From: Saccoglossus kowalevskii
Lineage: Eukaryota > Hemichordata > Enteropneusta > Harrimaniidae
Direction of reading: 5' to 3'
Assembly: GCF_000003605.2 (NCBI RefSeq)
Contig: NW_003115454.1
Location: forward strand, 42,254 to 67,301
DNA length: 25,048 nucleotides
Part shown: piece by piece, positions 6,400-23,167 of the stretch
Position numbering within the stretch: position 1 is the stretch's first letter
How the letters are laid out: each line of letters starts with the position of its first letter
Position numbers and translations under genes: made by a program
Notes under the pieces: model-generated
What the model saw: the letters and a program-made list of their open reading frames with translations, nothing else
Told to the model about the DNA's origin: nothing
Databases searched by the model: none

Positions 6400-7608
6400 T
6401 GACCCAACTATACCGAAAGTTTTCCACATATTTTTACGGACCGAGTGAAGCGGCAATAGCTGTAACTATCAACCTTTTTTCTTTGATTTTTATTTTCAAT
6501 CAAAAATTTCTTGTGTCATTACTGCCAATTTGTAACGACCATTGCCGAATTGTCGACACAACAAACATTGAATATACGCTATATACCGACGTTGTACATT
6601 AAATTAAAAGTAAATAAGAGAAGGATTAGAAAGTACTTCCATGTGTGGAAAGGATTGGATATATGAAGTTCAAATAAGGAATACTATACTAGAAGCACAT
6701 ATTATGTTTATTGCATGCAAAATCATTAACAAAATCTTGTTTTACCATATCTGTTGAATGGAACTTGAGAAACAAAAGAAATTACTATCACGCTAAGCTA
6801 CAACTCGTATAATATATAACAAAACTTTTGTTCAGCAACGTTTACCTCTCATAATAATAATAATAAGTATTAGTATTATCCTATCATCTTGCCTTCTGAC
6901 GCTGTTTTTCCATTCATTTCAGATTACCGTGGATATTTTCATACCGTATGATCATATTACTTCTATGATGTTTACATCTCTTTTATGGAGCGAGACTGTT
7001 CTGAGAGTCCCACCACTATCTGTGCGTCACACCGCATAATAACTAATTCAGTTGACTTGAATGGCACCAATAAACAATGGGAAGCTGATTACATTCTTTC
7101 TGCACCAGCACCAATCGAATTTCAACGTTGGACCAACCATTAATTGCACTTGCATGGAGCATAATGGTAAGTTAGTCACACAGCAACATACCGTAGTCTT
7201 ACACAAACTCACTTACTTTCCGTGTTGCTAGCCATGCAACAAGCAGGGGGTACTTTTACTGAACACAACTGGCTACACATCCACCATCATGCCATGCATA
7301 TCTTAGCCATTACCAAATGCACTTTGACCCCCATCATGGGGAATATTGCATAATGGAGATTGTCCACTTACATACAACTAAGCCCGTAGATTTCTCAAAC
7401 AATGTTATGTGAGTAAAATAAAAGAGTCACTGGAAATTTAACATGGGCAGAGGCGTCAATACTTTTTGTGGAACATTTGCATCCAACTGTGAGACCTATG
7501 CACCAATGTGGTGACATGAGTAATAACTTGTGTAAAACAAACAAGAGTTTTTAAAGTATAATGCAAAAACCGTTTAATAAACCATGATATATCAAAACAG
7601 AAGAATTA
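6400..7608. other. Intergenic, no gene recognised
   Basis: Upstream of the solute-binding-like gene. It is AT-rich, with short open frames lacking recognisable motifs. A strong minus donor (GAAA|GTAAGTGAG, 7217/7216) is present, but no convincing exon precedes it. Confidence 0.5.
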
Positions 7609-7728
<120 letters not shown>

Positions 7729-7729
7729 G

Positions 7730-8339
7730 GTAAATTATCTAAGTAAATGTTAGTTACATTAAATAAAGTTGGGCAACCGAAATCTAGTACACTAACAGGG
7801 TTGGTTGAGGGAACTCGTAGCATTCTTGAGCATATTGAGGTGTAACATTCTCTTTATGCCACAATGTTCCTACTTACAACATAAACAGGCAAGTCAGGGT
7901 TCCTCGTAATACATAGTAAGCATAGTCCACATTCTTGACCAGCACTCAATCACCAATGGTCAACACCATTGTAACTAGCTGGCCATAGCACTGCTTTTTA
8001 CCCAATGGCTTTAAATGCTAGGTCATATGTTCAATGCATATACTCATGTAGGTTCTCCATAGATTTCCAAATATGGCTCCCATCCGAAGTATTTTTACAT
8101 TCCCTATAAATTCACCAGTTTTCTCATTATCTACCATGCCAAGCAGCTTCATTATAGTGCAGTAGAACTGTTAACAATTTCCATTCCCGTGGGGTGACAG
8201 GGTACAGTGACGTTTCAATTCCCACAATCTGATGAGACTCCTCAATGAAATTGCACCCTTCACCATAAGACTGTCAAAAAGTTGTTTTTGCTGTCTGGTT
8301 TGTCGTTGGTATTGTCATTACAAACATAGTAAAGTGATT
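7730..8339. other. Intergenic; possible decayed mobile element
   Basis: On the minus strand there are broken frames with protein-like composition, including a stretch around 8040-8150 and CGLCLLCITRNPDLPVYVV around 7875-7940. They are interrupted by stops and frame changes and match no family I can name. They may be the remains of a transposon. Confidence 0.3.
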
Positions 8340-8712
8340 GGTAATCACATGGACAATCTAGCTTGGTAATCACATGGACAATCTAGCTTGGTAATCACAT
8401 GGACAATCTAGCTTGGTAATCACATGGACAATCTAGCTTGTAATCACATGGACAATCTAGCTTGGTAATCACATGGACAATCTAGCTTGGTAATCACATG
8501 GACAATCTAGCTTGGTAATCACATAGACAATCTAGCTTGGTAATCACATGGACAATCTAGCTTGGTAATCACATGGACAATCTAGCTTGGTAATCACATG
8601 GACAATCTAGCTTGTAATCACATGGACAATCTAGCTTGGTAATCACATGGACAATCTAGCTTGGTAATCACATGGGCAATCTAGCTTGGTAATCACATGG
8701 ACAATCTAGCTT
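8340..8712. repeat. 25-bp minisatellite, 15 copies
   Basis: The unit GGTAATCACATGGACAATCT plus AGCTT repeats 15 times. Two units have lost a G (24 bp), one has CATAGAC and one CATGGGC; the rest are identical. The array lies between the two genes and touches no recognised exon. There are no unique spacers, so it is not a CRISPR array. Confidence 0.97.
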
Positions 8713-13367: not shown

Positions 13368-15807
13368 TTACATGAATAACATATCAGGGCTTTGTTGGTT
13401 TGGGATGTCACCATCAGTTTTTCTATATGGACCTTGAAATATGAATGTATCGTCATCAGTCTTGTCCACATCAATTTTCTGGATGTCATGGTAACCATAT
13501 TCTTTATTTTCTCCAAATAATTCCGTCTCAATGCCTGTAGAAGCAGGCAATCGCATCTCATCATCATTGATCTTTTCGGTTTCTAGTGTATCCACTTCTT
13601 CCAAAAGTTTGTTTACGTTGATTTCTCCTACTTTATATTCGCTCATCCCTGCATTCTCTCCGTGAATCGATTCATCCGGGTTATATGGGTTTGAATTAGA
13701 CCCAAATTCGTTGAGTTCAGTGTATTGTTCATCGCCTGTTGGACGTTGAGCATGGTCATTATTTTGTGGTACAATTTCTAAATTTTCAGGAATTTCGGAG
13801 TGATATTCATTTTGTGTGTCATCAACAGGGACATTTTGTTGGTATGAGGCAGATGGCATGTCATTAATGCGAACAGGAGTGCCGATGTTATCTTGATAGC
13901 CTACATTGTTTTCATTTAATGTATCAATCATTCCAGGAACACTCTGTTGGTAAGGAACAGGTGCAATTTCTACATTTTGTCCAAACTGGTCCTCATTCTG
14001 CGTGCCAATATTTGTTTGATATTGATCAATGGGAACTTCATTAGCTTGGCCATAATTTGTAATCGTTTCGTGTGAGCTTTCAAACTGGCTTTCGCTTATC
14101 GTACCTACATCGTTTTGGTAAGATTCTAGTTCAATGTTACTCACAGGTTTAAAGTTTTCTTGGATACTTTCATAGGAATTATCTTTAAGCGTGTCAATAA
14201 TTGGAACATTTTGTTGGTAAGGGATGGGTTGACTTACAGGTGGGATAGCTTCTTGGATACTTTCATAGGAATTATCTTTAAGCGTGTCAATAATTGGAAC
14301 ATTTTGTTGGTAAGGGATGGGTTGACTTCCATATGTTTGACTTGCAGGTGGAATAGCTTCTTGGAGATTTTCATAGGAATTAGCCTTAAGTGGATCAATA
14401 ATTGGAACATTTTGTTGGTAAGTGACGGGTTGACTTTCATATGTTTGACTTGCAGGTGGGATAGCTTCTTGGAGATTTTCATAGGAATTATCCTTAAGTG
14501 GGTCAATAATTGGAACATTTTGTTGGTAAGGGACGGGTTGACTTTCATATGTTTGACTTGCAGGTGGGATAGCTTCTTGGAGATTTTCATAGGAATTATC
14601 CTTAAGTGGGTCAATAATTGGAACATTTTGTTGGTAAGGGATGGGTTGACTTTCATATGTTTGACTTGCAGGTGGGATAGCTTCTTGGAGATTTTCATAG
14701 GAATTATCCTTAAGTGGGTCAATAATTGGAACATTTTGTTGGTAAGGGATGGGTTGACTTTCATATGTTTGACCTGCAGGTGGGATAGCTTCTTGGATAC
14801 TTTCATAGGAATTATCTTTATGCGGGTCAATAATTGGAACATTTTGTTGGTAAGGGACAGGTTGACTTTCATATGTTTGACCTGCAGGTGGGATTGCTTC
14901 TTGGATACTTTCATAGGAATTATCTTTATGCGGGTCAATAATTGGAACATTTTGTTGGTAAGGGACGGGTTGACTTTCATATGTTTGACCTGCAGGTGGG
15001 ATAGCTTCTTGGATACTTTCATAGGAATTATCTTTAAGCTTGTCAATAATTGGAACATTATGTTGGTAAGGGACGGGTTGACTTTCATATGTTTGACCTG
15101 CAGGTGGGATAGCTTCTTGGAGATTTTCATAGGAATTATCCTTAAGCGGGTCAATAATTGGAACATTTTGTTGGTCAGAGGCGGGCTGATTTTCATACCG
15201 AATTTCGTTGAATTCCATAACATTTGGTGCATTGTCTATAGAAGGGTTGTATAAAGATGGATTTTCACGAATTTCACCAGAAGTCACAATATTCTGTTGG
15301 TAATGATCTTGAATAGCTGTGTTAAACTGCACATTTGACGTTACATCCTCAACCTTATTTACTGAGCTTTCACTAGAGTCCTTGTATGTCTCAAAAATAT
15401 CCTTCTGCATTTGCTTTAAGCTTGCTAGTTCTTCTTCAAGATGTTTCCCATCATCATCATCATCTATAGGATTAGTTTGAATGTCAGTTAAGTAACTGTC
15501 AACATCGCCATCTTCATCATCAGCCCAACTGCTCTCCGAGTCCCAGCTACTTGCCATCGATTCGCCTGCATCATTGTCGCCATTATCTGGATCATAATCT
15601 TCTTCTTCTTCACTAGAAAGGTCTTCAGTGTTTTCAAAATCATCATCTTGCTCTTCTTCGGTGTTTTCTTTTTCTTGAACCGATATGTATGCGTTTACTT
15701 GTGGATTCTGCATAGTGACGTCATTGATGGTGGTATCATGCCCCTCATTGTGGTTGGATGTATCTGTGACAGTCACCCTCTTGCACACAGTGTCACTGAA
15801 AAAGGCA
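13368..15807 (-). CDS. DKK3: DKK3-like gene, exon 5 (last cysteine plus about 800-residue tail)
   Basis: Acceptor TTCTTTTAG. The single base T completes Ser, followed by AFFSDTVCKRV, whose Cys (residue 310) is the tenth of domain 2. The remaining 804 residues have no Cys. In order: an acidic region (about 345-425, runs of Asp and Glu), a predicted helix (about 425-444, HLEEELASLKQMQKD), the 36-residue tandem array (508 to about 853), degenerate repeats with YQQNVP/YQQSVP cores (to about 990), and a C-terminal part with EYKVG (1025-1029) and a Leu/Glu helix. The exon join explains why the long open frame alone would lack any ATG start. Confidence 0.93.
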
Positions 15808-18800
15808 CTAAAAGAACAAAATAGTCAAGACATTAGTTCCATATAATTGGGAAGAACATTCAAAAGTGTATTTGGCGGATAAATAATCTAGGCAGATGAT
15901 CTTTAATTATTTCAAAATTATTTGTATTATTGTAGAAACTCTCTTTCATGAATGGACTACTCAGATTGATATATGCCATGTATTGTCCGACGCTACTGCA
16001 AGGCAGTATATGCTCAATCTTATCACCTGATATCTCTCCTTGATCTTAACTTTGAGGTCCATATATCATTCTTTTGTATATTGATTTTTGTGAAATCTCC
16101 AAAACTGATCATTTCCTTTCGTGTACCACAAAAATGTCTGTAATGCTGTACACATTAACTTATGTGTGTACTTTGTTCCATTGTTATAGATATATGTCCA
16201 TTGTACTTTGTTGACTATGGGTTTTGGATTAATTGATGGGTATATCAGGGCTACTTATTATACCATAATGCAAAATTGGTACTCTGACTCAGCCTGGGAA
16301 TCTGCATTGTATATCATATTGTAATGTTTCTTGCCAAGACAGGAACTGGCGCTCTGATTCAGCCTGGGAATCTGTATTGTATATCATTCTGTAATGTTTC
16401 TTGCCAAGACAGGAACTGGCGCTCTGATTCAGCCTGGGAATCTGTATTGTATATCATTCTGTAATGTTTCTTGCCAAGACAGGAACTGGCGCTTTGTTTC
16501 AGCCTGGGAATCTGTATTGTATATCATACTGTTATGTTCTTTTACCTGGACAGAAGCTGACACTAGGTCTCAGCCTAGGAATCTTTATAGTATATATTAC
16601 TGTAATGTTTCTTACCTCGATAAGGGCTGGCATTCTAACCCAGCAACGCAGGGACATTCACTGGGAGGTGTATTGATGATATTCGTGAAAAAAGATTCTC
16701 GTCCACGACTACAAGTCATTCCTTGTTCTCCCCTTGCCTTGCAAACTGTTGTCTGTAGACCTGTAGAGAAAAAACATTATTAATTTATAAACAACATACG
16801 AAGGTAATTAAGGCCACAGTGTGCGTGTAGCATTTGAGGAGAACGAAACCAGCCAATCAAAATGTCCACGCAATAAAAATTGCTAGCCCTTAATCTAAAG
16901 TTCCAAGAAGCAGTACAGTAGATTAATTCAATTTCGCTGTTGTTGTCGATTACCCACCTGGTTCGTAAGCACAGCACATATTATCTAAACAGTCACGGTC
17001 CTCATCACAGAATGTGCCAGAGTCTCCGGGGATAATGTCGGCATGGCAACGACCGAAGACGCACAGACTTCCGGGGCAGCACTCTGCGTCTCTGTTACAT
17101 ATCTCGTCTTCACCCATGCATCCTGCACACTCATTGGGCCAAAACCAGAAACCCATGTTGTCACAGAATTCGTTATCAGCACAATCGTTGTCATCCACAC
17201 AGTCAGCCTGCATTAAAATGACACAAGTTACCCAGTTCCAGTTCATGTTGACTATATACACACATTGTATTTGAGCTATACAGCTAAATAACATCGTTCA
17301 ATGTGAATTTGTGTTTGTCAAGCAAACTAAATGTCATTCTCGAAAGTGGACTGACGTAGTAGATGTAGTACAGCTTTACAAAACGCACTACAACACACAT
17401 GTTTCAGCTCGTTCAACAAAAACTAATACAAATGCTGTTACTGAAGGGTTTGCAATCACAGCTTTTTTTAGAAATTTCGCTTAAAGTGTTACTACTCCAA
17501 GCATTACCAATACACTACTGAACTGGTTCCATTAGTGGCGCGAAAACTGAAATTCCTTTTGACTATATGATTTACTGAATTTACCACGCAAGTGAACCAA
17601 TCTTAACTTCTAGACTGAACGAAGATTTCACGTTAGGTTAAAATGTACCAGAGACGTAAATATTGTAGAGCTGCTTTTGTTGATTTTGAATGTGACCAAA
17701 ACAATCTTGAAATGAATACGAGCTTCAATTGGGAGCAAGTGTAAATTTATAAGTATTTTAATATAGCCTGTATTCTTGGGGGCGGAGCTGCGTCACAGAA
17801 CGTTCCACGTTGCTAAGACGCGCGCCGCTGTACCATGTATTTCTATGGGCCCTGTGCGAGCTGCTAAGGAACGCCGGACGAGAAGCCGATGAAAACAACT
17901 AAAGTCGGGGAAAGAGCACAAACTCAACTTTGAAATAATCCTGAGCAACCAAGGGTATATATGTAGTAATTGTAGGGATAATCTACCCCCAAAGTAAGTT
18001 TTCTATGAGTTGTTGGCATTTGTTAACCGTGATGATTGCGGATGTCTGCCCTGTAAATAATGTGAGAATATGACATGGTTGAAAATTTACTAACCCAGTG
18101 GAAACACGGATATATGCAAAACTCAATTCTTTTGCGGATACGTTCGAAACTTTACCAGCATTTGATGTTGACACTCACCAGTATAGATGCATATATGTAT
18201 TACGTGCATACGATATTTACAATGTACCCGTTAGGCATTTCTCATAATCAACTGTTAACGGTGATGGCGCACCTAATTTGAACAGCGCCATCACATGATG
18301 ATAACATACCTTTTCGTCCATCCACTCAGATGATGAAGACATAAATTCATCCATTGAACTCGAAGTGTCGTCTTCTTCTTCCTGAATAAACTCATCGAAT
18401 TCCAGTCTGCTATCAATATCCGACTCTTTCGCTTTGCTGTCACTTCCTAATAGATTCGTTGTCGTGAAGACAGCCAGACCAGCACTGTTGTTTACCGTCA
18501 ACTTAACAACTGTTGTATTTTTCTGCATCAGCATACCGCCCATTTTCACAATTTCCGAAGTTGTATTTGTGTAATTCGGTGGCAGCAATTCAACATTTCT
18601 TATCTTAGGGTCAGACACTGTGTACAAAGTGAGAATAATACAACGTTCAAATCAAAATATTTATATAATATTATACCCCAATATTTCTTATATGTTCTCA
18701 AACTGGTGAGGTGCAAAACAGTATGACTGTATTTTATAACATTTGTTTTCTATTATCGGAGTCGTTACCGTTGTAGTAAAAACACTTATATTTATCTTAC

Positions 18801-21170
18801 GTAATATTATCCTTTGATCAAATAATGACGCAAAATAATTATGTCTTATGTCTGATCGATTGGTTTCGTTTTCGTTCATAAATTCCTCTCTCATATATGG
18901 AAGCACTTTGCTGACACACTTTTATCTTGACATTTCAAAGTGTATACACTGCTACAATATATTGCATAAATAAATTAATAACATGAACCCTTCCTTCTTG
19001 TGCAACTAAAGAGATAATACGCAACTATTTGATACTTCTTTCGGTGCACATAGACAATGAATGGCGGTGTGGAGTTGGAACTAGCCATCGATAATTGGGG
19101 TGACGATGCTCATATACGCACAAATACAGCACATTCAGCACTGGGTATTTGGCTCGAGTGAGCATTACTAAGCAATAACATGTGTTCATCCATGCATCGC
19201 CATGGTAACAATTCAAAAGTGGCGTACTATTTGACACATGTTACAAATTCCCAAATCTGTGTAGTTTATTGGTGTTTGAATTATTGACAAAATGAGTACA
19301 AAACGGATCTCAACAAGGTGAATTACGTAAGATAATTTTCTAAAATTGAAAATTACACAACCGACAACAAGAATTCACAAAATACTGATATACCAAATAC
19401 GGTGAACGGATGAAAAATACTCGTCTCAGTGAATAGAATTGCTTAATTAGTTACTATCCTAATTTGGCAATTACGCCTTTATTTCTAGTCATAATAACAC
19501 TAAAATAAATGATGACGCCATTTTGTTTGACAGCGTGATAATCATAAATATGACACCAGATTAAGGCCACCTGTTGCAACCAGCTAGCCGAGATTTGCTG
19601 ACGTCACGTTGAAGCACGATAATTATAACAAATATATTTCATTGACCTGCATGTTAGAGGAATTTTATAGATAAAATAAAAACCGCATGTATATTTACCC
19701 AATTTTAGGTATATGGCTCTTGTGGGCAACAAACTGATATGAATTCTATGTCCATACGTGCAACATTTAGTTTATCGTGGTATGTTGTGATGAATAAATG
19801 TTGGGTAATTATGTGTAGACCAACTGTGTATTATTTGTATTTTATTAAATCGGTACAGATTTGGTGAATACATTTATTTGTTGTTGTTCCGCCATTTTGT
19901 TCTTGGAGCACATGTGTGACTAGACCGCCATGACCGCCAGCAAAAAAAACAACACGGCTCCTACTGATTTCCGATAGTCGCAAAATGTGCCAGTCAAATA
20001 CTCGATTGCTAATTCAATTTATTTGAACTCCAATTTTGACCAACCACTCCAACATTTTGTAAGTTTTAAAAATGTTATGTCGAGGAATTTCTTAATATTG
20101 AATATTGAACAAATTTGGATTGGATTGTTTGTGATAATTCCGAATCATCTTTCTCGTCCTTCAGTCGTGGTTTCGGAAATACTAGTATGTTAAAAAGCAG
20201 GATTCACTGGAAATAATCCACGAACTGCTGCACTATTCAACTTGAATATCTATCCGAGCTCGGCAATGCTGACCTCGATGTCACACCTAACCAGAACCTC
20301 TGCTAACCATGTTTACTGTGCACATGGTGTCGCAGATATTATAGAATTGTTTGAACCCTTTATACGCCAAATTCGACTTCGGTTTGGTCCACACTTACAG
20401 GAAAATACTTACAATTGTGCCAAAATATTGTGCTCCAATATTTTGAATAGAACAAATCGTTTAAAATATCAAATGAAATGTGTTTGCTTGCTACTCCCGC
20501 CATTTCACGCAAAATAGTTCACTAACACACACTCGCTACAGTCACACACGGATCTGTTGGTGTAGACTGTGCAAATTTTATGTCAATTCTCCGAGTAAAT
20601 TTTTACAAGACAAATCAAAAATTTGGTACCAATATTTTAGCTTTGTGGCGACAATATTAGATTGCTGGAATCTCCGTCAAAACCCATTGTCTATGAACAA
20701 TATTCGACAGCGAAAAAACGCAACAAAAATGGTGAAATGAACAATAACATTTACGTGGCAGACCTCGGATGGCGGGCAACAGCTATAGTCTGTTCTTGGC
20801 CGAACAAATTTGTAAATAGAAGGAGTAATAGTTTTGATTAAACTCCAGTTCTTTTCCAATTTTTCATAATTATGAACACATACAAATACCACAACTAAGA
20901 ATATATACTGGCGACAGAGATGAGATTTTACAAACAATGGTAAATCTCGTGAACAACACAATTCCTACCTTTTCCTTCTTCATGAAACGACTGCAATTTT
21001 CCGTACATAGATTGTAAATTATCAATTAACTTGTCGAATCTGTCTTCTCTCTTCTCCCCGATATTATCCATGTTTTGAAACGCATTATTTGCTAGTTGTA
21101 CTTGCTGATAGTAATTGGGAAAGGCGTAAATGACACCAAAAAAGAGAGTTATTAAGATGACGCATCGCAT
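13368..21170 (-). CDS. DKK3: Dickkopf-3-like secreted protein with giant repeat-bearing C-terminal region (5 exons, complete)
   Basis: Exons 21170-20969, 18617-18310, 17207-16958, 16760-16616, 15807-13368 (202, 308, 250, 145, 2440 nt; total 3345, 1114 residues). All introns are GT-AG and in phase. Residues 1-16 are a signal peptide. A helical N-terminal segment follows, then LLPPNYTNTTS with N-glycosylation sequons, an acidic Ser-rich linker, cysteine-rich domain 1 (173-224, ten Cys), a 12-residue linker and cysteine-rich domain 2 (237-310, ten Cys). DKK proteins are secreted modulators of Wnt signalling through LRP5/6; DKK3 is the divergent member and its receptor role is disputed. The short linker, the LLPPNY region and a CVFGRC/CCAYEPG pattern identify DKK3 rather than DKK1/2/4. 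Vertebrate DKK3 is about 350 residues. Here about 800 cysteine-free residues follow the second domain, including ten 36-residue repeats. The start at 21170 was chosen over an upstream in-frame ATG (21275) because it opens the signal peptide and has A at -3. Confidence 0.93.
14157..15191 (-). repeat. In-frame 108-bp (36-residue) coding tandem array, about 10 copies
   Basis: Units of the pattern SQPVPYQQNVPIIDPLKDNS plus YE(N/S)(L/I)QEAIPPA(G/S)QTYE. Eight full-length units, one shortened by five residues (ends AIPPV), and a last unit that degenerates after SIQ. Variants fall in blocks: units 2-4 have SIQ with AGQ, units 5-8 have NLQ with ASQ, units 9-10 have SIQ with DTLK. Units 3 and 4 are identical at the protein level. 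This suggests block duplication and recent homogenisation. Confidence 0.97.
15808..16269. other. DKK3-like intron 4, unique part
   Basis: AT-rich intronic sequence between exon 5 and the 70-bp array; no feature recognised beyond the exon 5 acceptor. Confidence 0.6.
16270..16645. repeat. 70-bp intronic minisatellite that includes the exon 4 splice donor
   Basis: The core CAGCCTGGGAATC (plus strand) recurs at 16290, 16360, 16430, 16500 and 16571, and its exonic counterpart CAGCAACG at 16641: periods 70, 70, 70, 71, 70. On the minus strand the terminal unit holds the true donor CGAG|GTAAGAAAC. The next has CCAG|GTAAAAG, and the others TTGG|CAAGAAAC. The array starts inside exon 4 and spreads into intron 4. 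Confidence 0.93.
16616..16760 (-). CDS. DKK3: DKK3-like gene, exon 4 (cysteine-rich domain 2)
   Basis: Acceptor CTCTACAG, donor TCGAG|GTAAGA. It encodes GLQTTVCKARGEQGMTC and SECPCVAGLECQPLS, cysteines 5-9 of domain 2. This exon has no long open frame and is recognised by phase, cysteine pattern and splice sites. Its last 30 or so bases belong to the 70-bp intronic repeat unit. Reading past the donor meets TAA at once. Confidence 0.92.
16958..17207 (-). CDS. DKK3: DKK3-like gene, exon 3 (cysteine-rich domain 1)
   Basis: Acceptor AATGCAG, donor CCAG|GTGGGT. Encodes ten cysteines from CVDDNDCADNEFC to CCPGSLCVFGRC, the complete first DKK domain, then the short linker and the first four cysteines of domain 2 (CDEDRDCLDNMCC). 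Confidence 0.95.
17208..18309. other. DKK3-like intron 2 with a GC-rich island
   Basis: A 1.1-kb intron. Bases 17775-17890 are clearly GC- and CpG-rich (GGGGGCGGAGC, GACGCGCGCCGC) in AT-rich surroundings, which suggests an inserted fragment of a mobile element. No coding exon is recognised. Confidence 0.5.
18310..18617 (-). CDS. DKK3: DKK3-like gene, exon 2
   Basis: Acceptor TACACAG, donor GAAAAG|GTATGT. It encodes VELLPPNYTNTTSEIVKMGG and a beta-rich region with several Asn-X-Ser/Thr sites, the segment that precedes the cysteine domains in DKK3. It ends with an acidic serine-rich stretch (EEEDDTSSSMDEF, SSSSEWMDEK). Confidence 0.9.
18618..20968. other. DKK3-like intron 1
   Basis: 2.35 kb. 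Plus-strand open frames at 20242-20740 show no recognisable domain. Several CCGCCATTTT/GCCATTTTG motifs (YY1-like) occur (near 19517, 19888, 20508), possibly within dispersed repeats. Confidence 0.5.
20969..21170 (-). CDS. DKK3: DKK3-like gene, exon 1
   Basis: Starts MRCVILITLFFGVIYA (signal peptide). An Asn/Gln-rich amphipathic segment follows (NIGEKREDRFDKLIDNLQSM) that corresponds to the N-terminal helix of DKK3. The donor is AAAAG|GTAGGA, phase 1. Confidence 0.88.
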
Positions 21171-21275
21171 ATTGGTAACAATATTCCTAACTACATACAA
21201 TATAACTGGTTGTCGTGACTTCGATTTGATTGCCAGGCCCGCAATGATGTGTTGTTGTATAGCCCGATGTTGCAT

Positions 21276-23167
21276 TAATGATGTCGTCAGTTTGAGTTTT
21301 GTTCTAGAAAAAGCTCAATTGACTCCCTAGCCAGGACTTATTTTGTATGAACATCAAACCAAAAATTGAACCACGGACTACTGCATATCATTAATTAGCT
21401 AATCATTGCAATGAATGCACCAATTACGATGATGAATTTTTAAATTTATTTCTAGTTGCTGATGCCGCATTGCAAACGATAAATTATCTAATCTTGTCCC
21501 GGTTAAGATTTACGATTAAAAAAGAGTTGTTTGATATTCTATGATGTTCAAAAATTATTTAGTCAGCGCCTTTGTGGGTTTTTTTTTCCAGATTTTAGGA
21601 AGTAACACAAACAAGTCGTGCACTAACAAAAAAACAATCATTCTGTTGTTGGCCCAATAAATACACCACTCGACGATGAATATTTTTAAAATTTACACAA
21701 CACATTAAATTCAACAACATAAAAGAAATCGACACATTAGTTTCATATATTTTCTTCAAAGTATCGATATACGTGGCGAGATGTTTTACACATTTTGAAT
21801 TTCTAGTAAAAACGTACCACCAGCAATGTTGCAATAATTCGAATTATGTTACACTCGTTTACCTAGGGAGTTGTGATTCAACCTGGCACAACCTGTTACC
21901 TGATTTGAATAAAATATTATAATCCTTTGAAACAATAAGAAAGTCGTCACAACATGTCGCAATAAGTTGAATGAGTGTCGACAATTGTTTATTAATATGC
22001 ATCATTTCAAAATTACTGTCATATTACTTGACGACAGTGTCACCCAATAATACTGTGCGTTATAATGACCATGACGAATAATTTGCGTTTTATTCGTATT
22101 CCAATACCAGCTGTAACCCGTTTGAGCAGGTCAATGTCTGAATATAACCGGTTGTGAATCACTAATTCATCATGGTGGCTCACATGTAAATATCCACATC
22201 GCCAGCCATAAATGATAAACTCATGTTGGTTGCAGCTGGATCAACACACTGTTGTGTCGCGTATTTACAGAAAATTAACAACTTGAAACATCGTCGTCTG
22301 TATGTATGTCTACTAGTCAGATCGGCATTTAAATAAAGAATATGAGTACTATAATTCATAGTCTGACCGTTTGTAGATGCCATAAAAACAACACAATTAA
22401 TACACAGGCATGGAAAACCAAAATGTTGTTTTAACAAAATATTAACATTACGGAGACGAATCATAAAAAAACAAACAAATATAAAACAATCTGTATAGAG
22501 GTTGATATTTTAATATTTGTTATCGTGGTGTTTTAATATTTAGTGTCAAACGTTGATAGAATCGTAGAAATATGACATCACAGTACTATCGACAGTATCA
22601 ACGCTTTAAGCTGAACGTGAATTGCGTCATGTGGACGTGTTAGTTGTCGTGTTAGTTACCCAGATATAATGAATGAGGCTTTGGCTCTAGATTGATAATT
22701 TTAATTCCTAAATATCACCCTGTGACACGAAACGCGCACATATAACGACATAAATAATGATATAATACTTTACTGTCGGCTTATCAACAAGTAAACCGGT
22801 TGTAGACAAAATAAATGTGCATATTAATAATAACAAATCGAAAAGAGGCTTACTGGCCACGCCAGTTAAAATCAGTGAAGGATAAACACAATGCATGCTG
22901 CGATGACGTCATTGTTATCAGGTGACATACGTCTATCCTCCTAAGAATTCACATTTTTATAATCAAAACCTTTGTGATACAACTTTAACGTGAAAACGGG
23001 TGAAAACAATTCGGAAAATGGGAACACACATAAGACAACATTTTAGCGGGGAAAATGTGAGAATTAATGTAGAAAATCAATTACTGCGGGATGGTTACAT
23101 ATTCTCTCACGGAGAGTCTGTGGAGATAAATATTATTGTTAAAATTAATAAATAAATAAATAATAAT
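21276..23167. other. Upstream region of the DKK3-like gene, no other gene recognised
   Basis: AT-rich. Homeodomain-like TAATTA/TGATTAG sites lie near 21390-21405, on the promoter side of the DKK3-like gene. No TATA box or second gene could be supported. Short open frames here have no recognisable content. Confidence 0.4.

Follow-up and report, generated by a model that had tools for sequence, protein, structure and literature searches.

Gene organization of the DKK3 locus

Five coding exons of a DKK3-like gene, all on the minus strand, were identified in the window (the whole stretch of Saccoglossus kowalevskii DNA analysed, 25,048 nucleotides). They join in phase into a CDS of 3345 nt encoding 1114 aa, and all four introns have GT..AG ends. 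Coding exon 1 (20969..21170) encodes a signal-peptide-like start (MRCVILITLFFGVIYA; residues 1-16, called by eye) and the beginning of the DKK3-type N-terminal region; an upstream in-frame Met is also present for this exon (ORF 20928..21314). Coding exon 2 (18310..18617) carries the DKK3-type N-terminal region (LPPNYTNT...NNSAGLAVF), an acidic linker and four N-glycosylation motifs. Coding exon 3 (16958..17207) encodes domain 1 (10 Cys, residues 173-224), a 12-residue linker and the start of domain 2, and coding exon 4 (16616..16760) extends from the middle of domain 2 through its ninth cysteine (Cys9, residue 297) and ends in a phase-2 donor. Coding exon 5 (13368..15807) contributes the tenth cysteine (Cys10, residue 310), a Cys-free tail of 804 residues and a TAA stop, and is open from a TTTTAG acceptor through the TAA. 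The locus is very probably a single DKK3 gene with a gain of about 800 codons in its last exon, and the five exons would be transcribed as one mRNA.

Intron 4 (15808..16615, minus strand, phase 2) separates Cys9 from Cys10 and contains a tandem array (16282-16613; 70-bp unit, 4.7 copies) which takes up much of the intron and lies right past the exon 4 donor. Tandem arrays were also found at 8338-8712 (25-bp unit repeated 15 times, 97%), 7608-7727 (ATAA repeated 30 times) and 1-152 (26/54-bp unit). Exon-like ORFs at 75-419 and 2443-2799, both on the minus strand, resembled by eye the ligand-binding parts of ionotropic glutamate receptors; the Pfam search gave SBP_bac_3 at 0.0027, below the cut-off, for the 75-419 ORF and no match for the 2443-2799 ORF. 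The 10-kb flanks of the window (L012 and L013; G000:C885:32254-42253 and 67302-77301) both read as N. The mollusc haemocyanin family PF14830 gave 0 matches, a result of no weight because no control responded.

DKK3 identity of the protein body

Ten cysteines each were counted in residues 173-224 and 237-310, with 12 residues between the two domains, and the sole other Cys of the protein was residue 3. Domain 1 matched Pfam Dickkopf_N (1e-10, 42.2 bits, cut-off 25). Among PDB sequences, domain 2 matched DKK2 (4.3e-6) and domain 1 matched DKK4 (2.9e-5); the six matches did not include a DKK3 chain. The human DKK3 reference used for pairwise comparison (350 aa) agrees with the available text of PMC10606412 at the only positions checked (L249-E255, P258 and R264). 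Residues 1-172 scored 87 against this reference (shuffled mean 29, reached in 0/1000 shuffles) and the two Cys domains scored 244 (shuffled mean 40, 0/1000). The score of this gene (246) was the best of those obtained for the Dickkopf loci of the genome (L001, 177; L003, 142), these being pairwise scores with one DKK3 reference. DKK1/2/4 proteins are not known to have a DKK3-type N-terminal region (LPPxYxN...). Judged from its sequence, the body is DKK3-like, as the initial annotation had proposed.

The features held in common with vertebrate DKK3 were the N-terminal region, the two ten-Cys domains, the 12-residue linker, the CPC..GL.CQP.S motif and, as a candidate, an acidic segment past Cys10. 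The difference lies in what follows Cys10: about 66 residues without repeats in the human DKK3 reference, but 804 residues with a 36-residue repeat here. By hand count, the loop between Cys6 and Cys7 of domain 2 had 18 residues in this protein (Cys 270-289), 23 in the human DKK3 reference and 16 in the DKK2 chain; the longer loop of DKK3 carries an insertion said to lower LRP5/6 binding (PMC10606412, available text). All domain cysteines and the DKK3 N-terminal region are retained, which makes it probable that the DKK3 body continues to fold and to signal.

Evidence for a coding tail in phase with the body

The codon for Cys10 (residue 310) lies at 15785-15783, ninth in exon 5 when the split codon is counted; the opening codons of this exon give, in the right phase, the cysteine missing from domain 2. 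Because the stop-to-stop frame of exon 5 opens at 15824, only 17 bases upstream of the exon, it could hardly accommodate an independent start. Between 16575 and 11000, a Cys would follow within 25 residues of 83 AG sites; the longest continuations were 813 codons (acceptor 15807) and 809 codons (acceptor 15795), the next longest being 74. Acceptors 15807 and 15795, 12 bases apart, are both in phase and both plausible, and Cys10 becomes the fifth codon when the second is used; their use may produce isoforms in which the stretch from Cys9 to Cys10 differs by four residues. These results agree with the earlier claims that exon 5 is joined in phase to the body and supplies the tenth cysteine of domain 2.

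The 804 residues past Cys310 contain 0 Cys and reach 2.6 times the length of the body. From residue 312 onwards (803 residues), 154 Asp and Glu were counted versus 32 Lys and Arg. In-frame stops were absent from the two non-repeat flanks of the tail, of 201 and 246 codons. The counts were 10 and 33, and 11 and 35, for the other two frames of the same strand, and 6-13 for the reverse frames. Dinucleotide shuffles of the flanks had means of 13.6 and 16.8 stops and were stop-free in 0/2000. The 3-base periodicity of each flank was reached in 0/1000 dinucleotide shuffles. The tail thus looks coding, and the proposal of a Cys-free extension of about 800 residues holds. Long antisense and second-frame ORFs also run across the 108-bp array of the tail and are presumably by-products of the repeat, because its period is a multiple of three.

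Segments and repeats of the tail

The first segment of the tail (residues 312-512; 15177..15779, minus strand) is acidic, with a net charge of -46, and includes a possible short helix at about residues 421-444, the longest helix in a single-sequence AlphaFold2 model of very low confidence. The second segment (residues 513-867; 14112..15176, minus strand) is a recent array in which a 36-residue unit (YQQNVPIIDPLKDNSYENLQEAIPPASQTYESQPVP-like) is repeated in tandem, with 8 full units, one unit of 31 residues (five short) and one partial unit. The corresponding DNA array (14229-15197) has a 108-bp unit, 9.0 copies and 95% matches. A Pfam BBIP10 match on the array (0.00065, under its cut-off) was discarded as a match of repeat and composition.

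Residues 868-1114 also carried the unit, scoring 98 versus the consensus (shuffled maximum 81, 0/1000). The signal was located in residues 868-990 (score 94, 0/1000 shuffles), where decayed older copies of the unit were recognized (13743..14021, minus strand; YQTN at residue 898, YQQSVP at 921, YQDN at 939 and YQQNVP at 957), two of them spaced 36 residues. Consensus alignment detected no unit copies in residues 991-1114 (629/1000 shuffles reach the score) and no significant signal ahead of the array (61/1000). The presence of decayed copies beside a fresh array suggests repeated rounds of unit amplification in a tail whose frame has been kept over a long time. Within the array, pN/pS was 0.54 across the 8 full units and 0.76 in a 9-unit set including a non-homologous partial unit, for which the wrong frames had values of 0.52 and 0.93; the selection signal is weak and not decisive.

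Near the end of the tail, EYKVGEINVNKLLEEVDTLETEK resembled the C-terminal segment of the human DKK3 reference (36/1000 shuffles as good over the whole tail, 11/1000 over its last 150 residues). Residues 1025-1058 (EYKVG..LEEV; 13539..13640, minus strand) are accordingly a weak candidate for a remnant of the short, ordinary DKK3 C-terminal segment; no such segment was detected at the tail start (167/1000 shuffles as good). If the remnant is real, the growth would have been an insertion between Cys10 and the ancestral DKK3 C-terminus, a course which the alignment is suggestive of and does not go beyond.

Predicted disorder and search for relatives

Single-sequence AlphaFold2 modelling of the tail gave mostly coil with a mean pLDDT of 38.4, a value which a lone sequence often receives anyway. 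In the charge-hydropathy analysis the tail fell on the disordered side, and the N-terminal region likewise, less so. The tail is probably disordered according to these predictions. The initial annotation had described a tail with an acidic start and repeats and had suggested disorder; the acidic start and the repeats were found, and the disorder received weak support. Its overall reading is supported in part, the DKK3 body, the junction, Cys10 and the Cys-free coding tail standing more firmly than the disorder.

Searches for relatives of the tail gave 0 PDB matches at E <= 1, and in IMG/VR 5 pattern-matching stretches, none of them a relative. Among 56 scored candidates of 153 in its own genome, there was no convincing second copy: the tail itself and 8 weak matches of 16-21% identity were retrieved. 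The 8 weak matches were rejected as matches of composition; 7 had 6 to 15 internal stops and one (L011, E 0.064) had none. The first 461 residues of the joined protein, covering the body and the first part of the tail, were searched against 5.8 billion proteins, and none of the 7991 candidates with the most words in common reached E <= 0.01; this search says little, because ordinary DKKs were missed as well.

Dickkopf paralogues and the probable ancestral last exon

Three Dickkopf_N loci were found in the genome: the DKK3 gene described here, L001 (G000:C4134) and L003/L014 (G000:C1946). L001 is DKK1/2/4-like (PDB DKK2, 2.8e-16); it shares Dickkopf_N with the DKK3 gene, but stops 5 residues past its last Cys and has no tail. 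L003 weakly matched DKK1 (3.2e-4), and L003/L014 was set apart as a third, putatively DKK5-like class by elimination and from PMC11414264. The available text of the same paper names dkk5 and states the loss of dkk1/2/4 in protostomes, and that of PMC6425005 states the loss of dkk3 in ecdysozoans and lophotrochozoans; three such loci would conflict with these scenarios if they came from a protostome.

In addition to Dickkopf_N, L003/L014 shares with the DKK3 gene a phase-2 intron between Cys9 and Cys10 of domain 2, but it lacks the tail: joined across the intron at a junction chosen by hand, its sequence closes with ...CRRAPIENTDELEWRFWTDFDQMHCQVFT-stop, which places four residues between Cys10 and the stop. 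From the arrangement in this one paralogue, and from the human DKK3 reference, a small last exon bearing Cys10 is probably the old state, out of which the DKK3 tail would have grown. The ancestral last exon would thus have supplied Cys10 and a short C-terminus only, and would later have gained about 800 codons. The product would be secreted, a DKK3 whose long, acidic and probably disordered tail derives in part from amplification of the 36-residue unit.

DKK proteins in matrices and alternative interpretations of the tail

Lineage-specific repetitive disordered tails are fairly common among secreted proteins, and the role of invertebrate DKK3 has been little studied. DKK3 has been reported in vertebrates, cephalochordates, hemichordates and cnidarians, with no mention of a long tail in the text available. 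Among the matches listed in a literature search that covered mostly papers free of subscription, none concerned a DKK with such a tail. The combination of DKK3 and a long repeat tail is a variant of a known family, and is new as far as those matches show.

Precedents for DKK3 in a matrix or a storage compartment are known from nematocysts and eggshell. DKK3 proteins have been found in the nematocyst proteomes of box jellyfish and, as cited there, of Hydra, and rank with the main proteins identified in nematocysts; they resemble the present case, by description only, in placing the DKK3 family in a structural secretory compartment, and differ from it in that the available text mentions no long tail (PMC3517583). 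Chicken eggshell DKK3 is cited, and DKK-1 in urchin tooth matrix reported, in PMC2830187. Long tails are not known to be involved in the nematocyst and eggshell precedents. Urchin phosphodontin, again by description only, is comparable in its workings, being secreted and acidic with many short repeats, but no Dickkopf domain is mentioned for it in the text available (PMC2830187).

These reports of DKK proteins in eggshell and urchin tooth matrix (PMC2830187) would also fit an alternative, which we regard as unlikely, where the tail has turned into a polymer of a structural or biomineral matrix, with the DKK3 body left as a mere anchor or relic. The acidic, Tyr/Gln/Pro-rich repeats point the same way, with one SxE motif per unit. 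SxE is a motif of the secretory-kinase type. However, SxE was at chance outside the array (5 observed, 4.1 expected, 783/2000 shuffles reach), and the body retains all 20 domain cysteines and the N-terminal region, unlike a relic. On the same count, SxE being unenriched outside the array, phosphorylation of the Fam20C type was rejected as the force behind the tail.

Alternatively, the tailed form might be a minor isoform, most of the mRNA being shortened by internal splicing or by the use of another last exon, with the tail of importance in one tissue only; we consider this quite improbable. AG sites of the 70-bp array in intron 4 (16503, 16491, 16433 and 16421) would lead soon to a Cys (SASSC...) and, after 44-48 residues, to a stop. 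However, the pyrimidine tracts of these sites scored 0.50-0.56 on a crude scale, versus 0.75 and 0.81 at 15807 and 15795, their continuations were unlike DKK3 by eye, and exon 4 read directly into intron 4 gave Ser-Arg-stop, with no Cys10.

Since the protein is probably secreted and its tandem units are equal in length, a prohormone-like precursor processed into numerous small secreted peptides could also be considered, but this is very unlikely because no dibasic site was present between repeat units in the array, the only ones lying at 1097 (the only one well inside the tail) and 311 (tail start). Scarcely credible, too, is an artefact, in which 13368-15806 would be a separate gene or a misjoined contig beside an ordinary DKK3: the gene model rests on genomic sequence, and the copy number of an array 95% self-identical may be mis-assembled, but the reading frame begins so close to the exon and, by eye, lacks an early signal peptide, and the exon start gives exactly the missing Cys10 in an arrangement common to the paralogue L003/L014.

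Putative function of the tailed DKK3

For a single DKK3 gene with a grown last exon, the favoured mechanism is one in which the folded DKK3 body would do the receptor or ligand work, and the tail, presumably lineage-specific, could act as a polyanionic, multivalent tether or spacer holding DKK3 in extracellular matrix or in secretory-granule material; such a hold would slow the spread of DKK3. Retention by the tail is put forward tentatively, as a mechanism that may well not apply. The architecture and the retention mechanism taken jointly are loosely held, with the balance slightly in their favour. DKK3 has been reported not to bind LRP5/6 or to block Wnt receptor assembly, unlike other DKKs (PMC5524345, available text). 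A more specific and rather doubtful proposal is a matrix-immobilised, multivalent Wnt/TGF-beta modulator, whose range would be set by a 36-residue repeat of variable number, so that tail-length alleles could tune its gradient.

If retention is true, the tail could turn a freely moving signal into a matrix-held one. The 108-bp array is an obvious candidate for length polymorphism, and a DKK3 with such a tail may offer a natural test of whether DKK3 is diffusible or matrix-bound.
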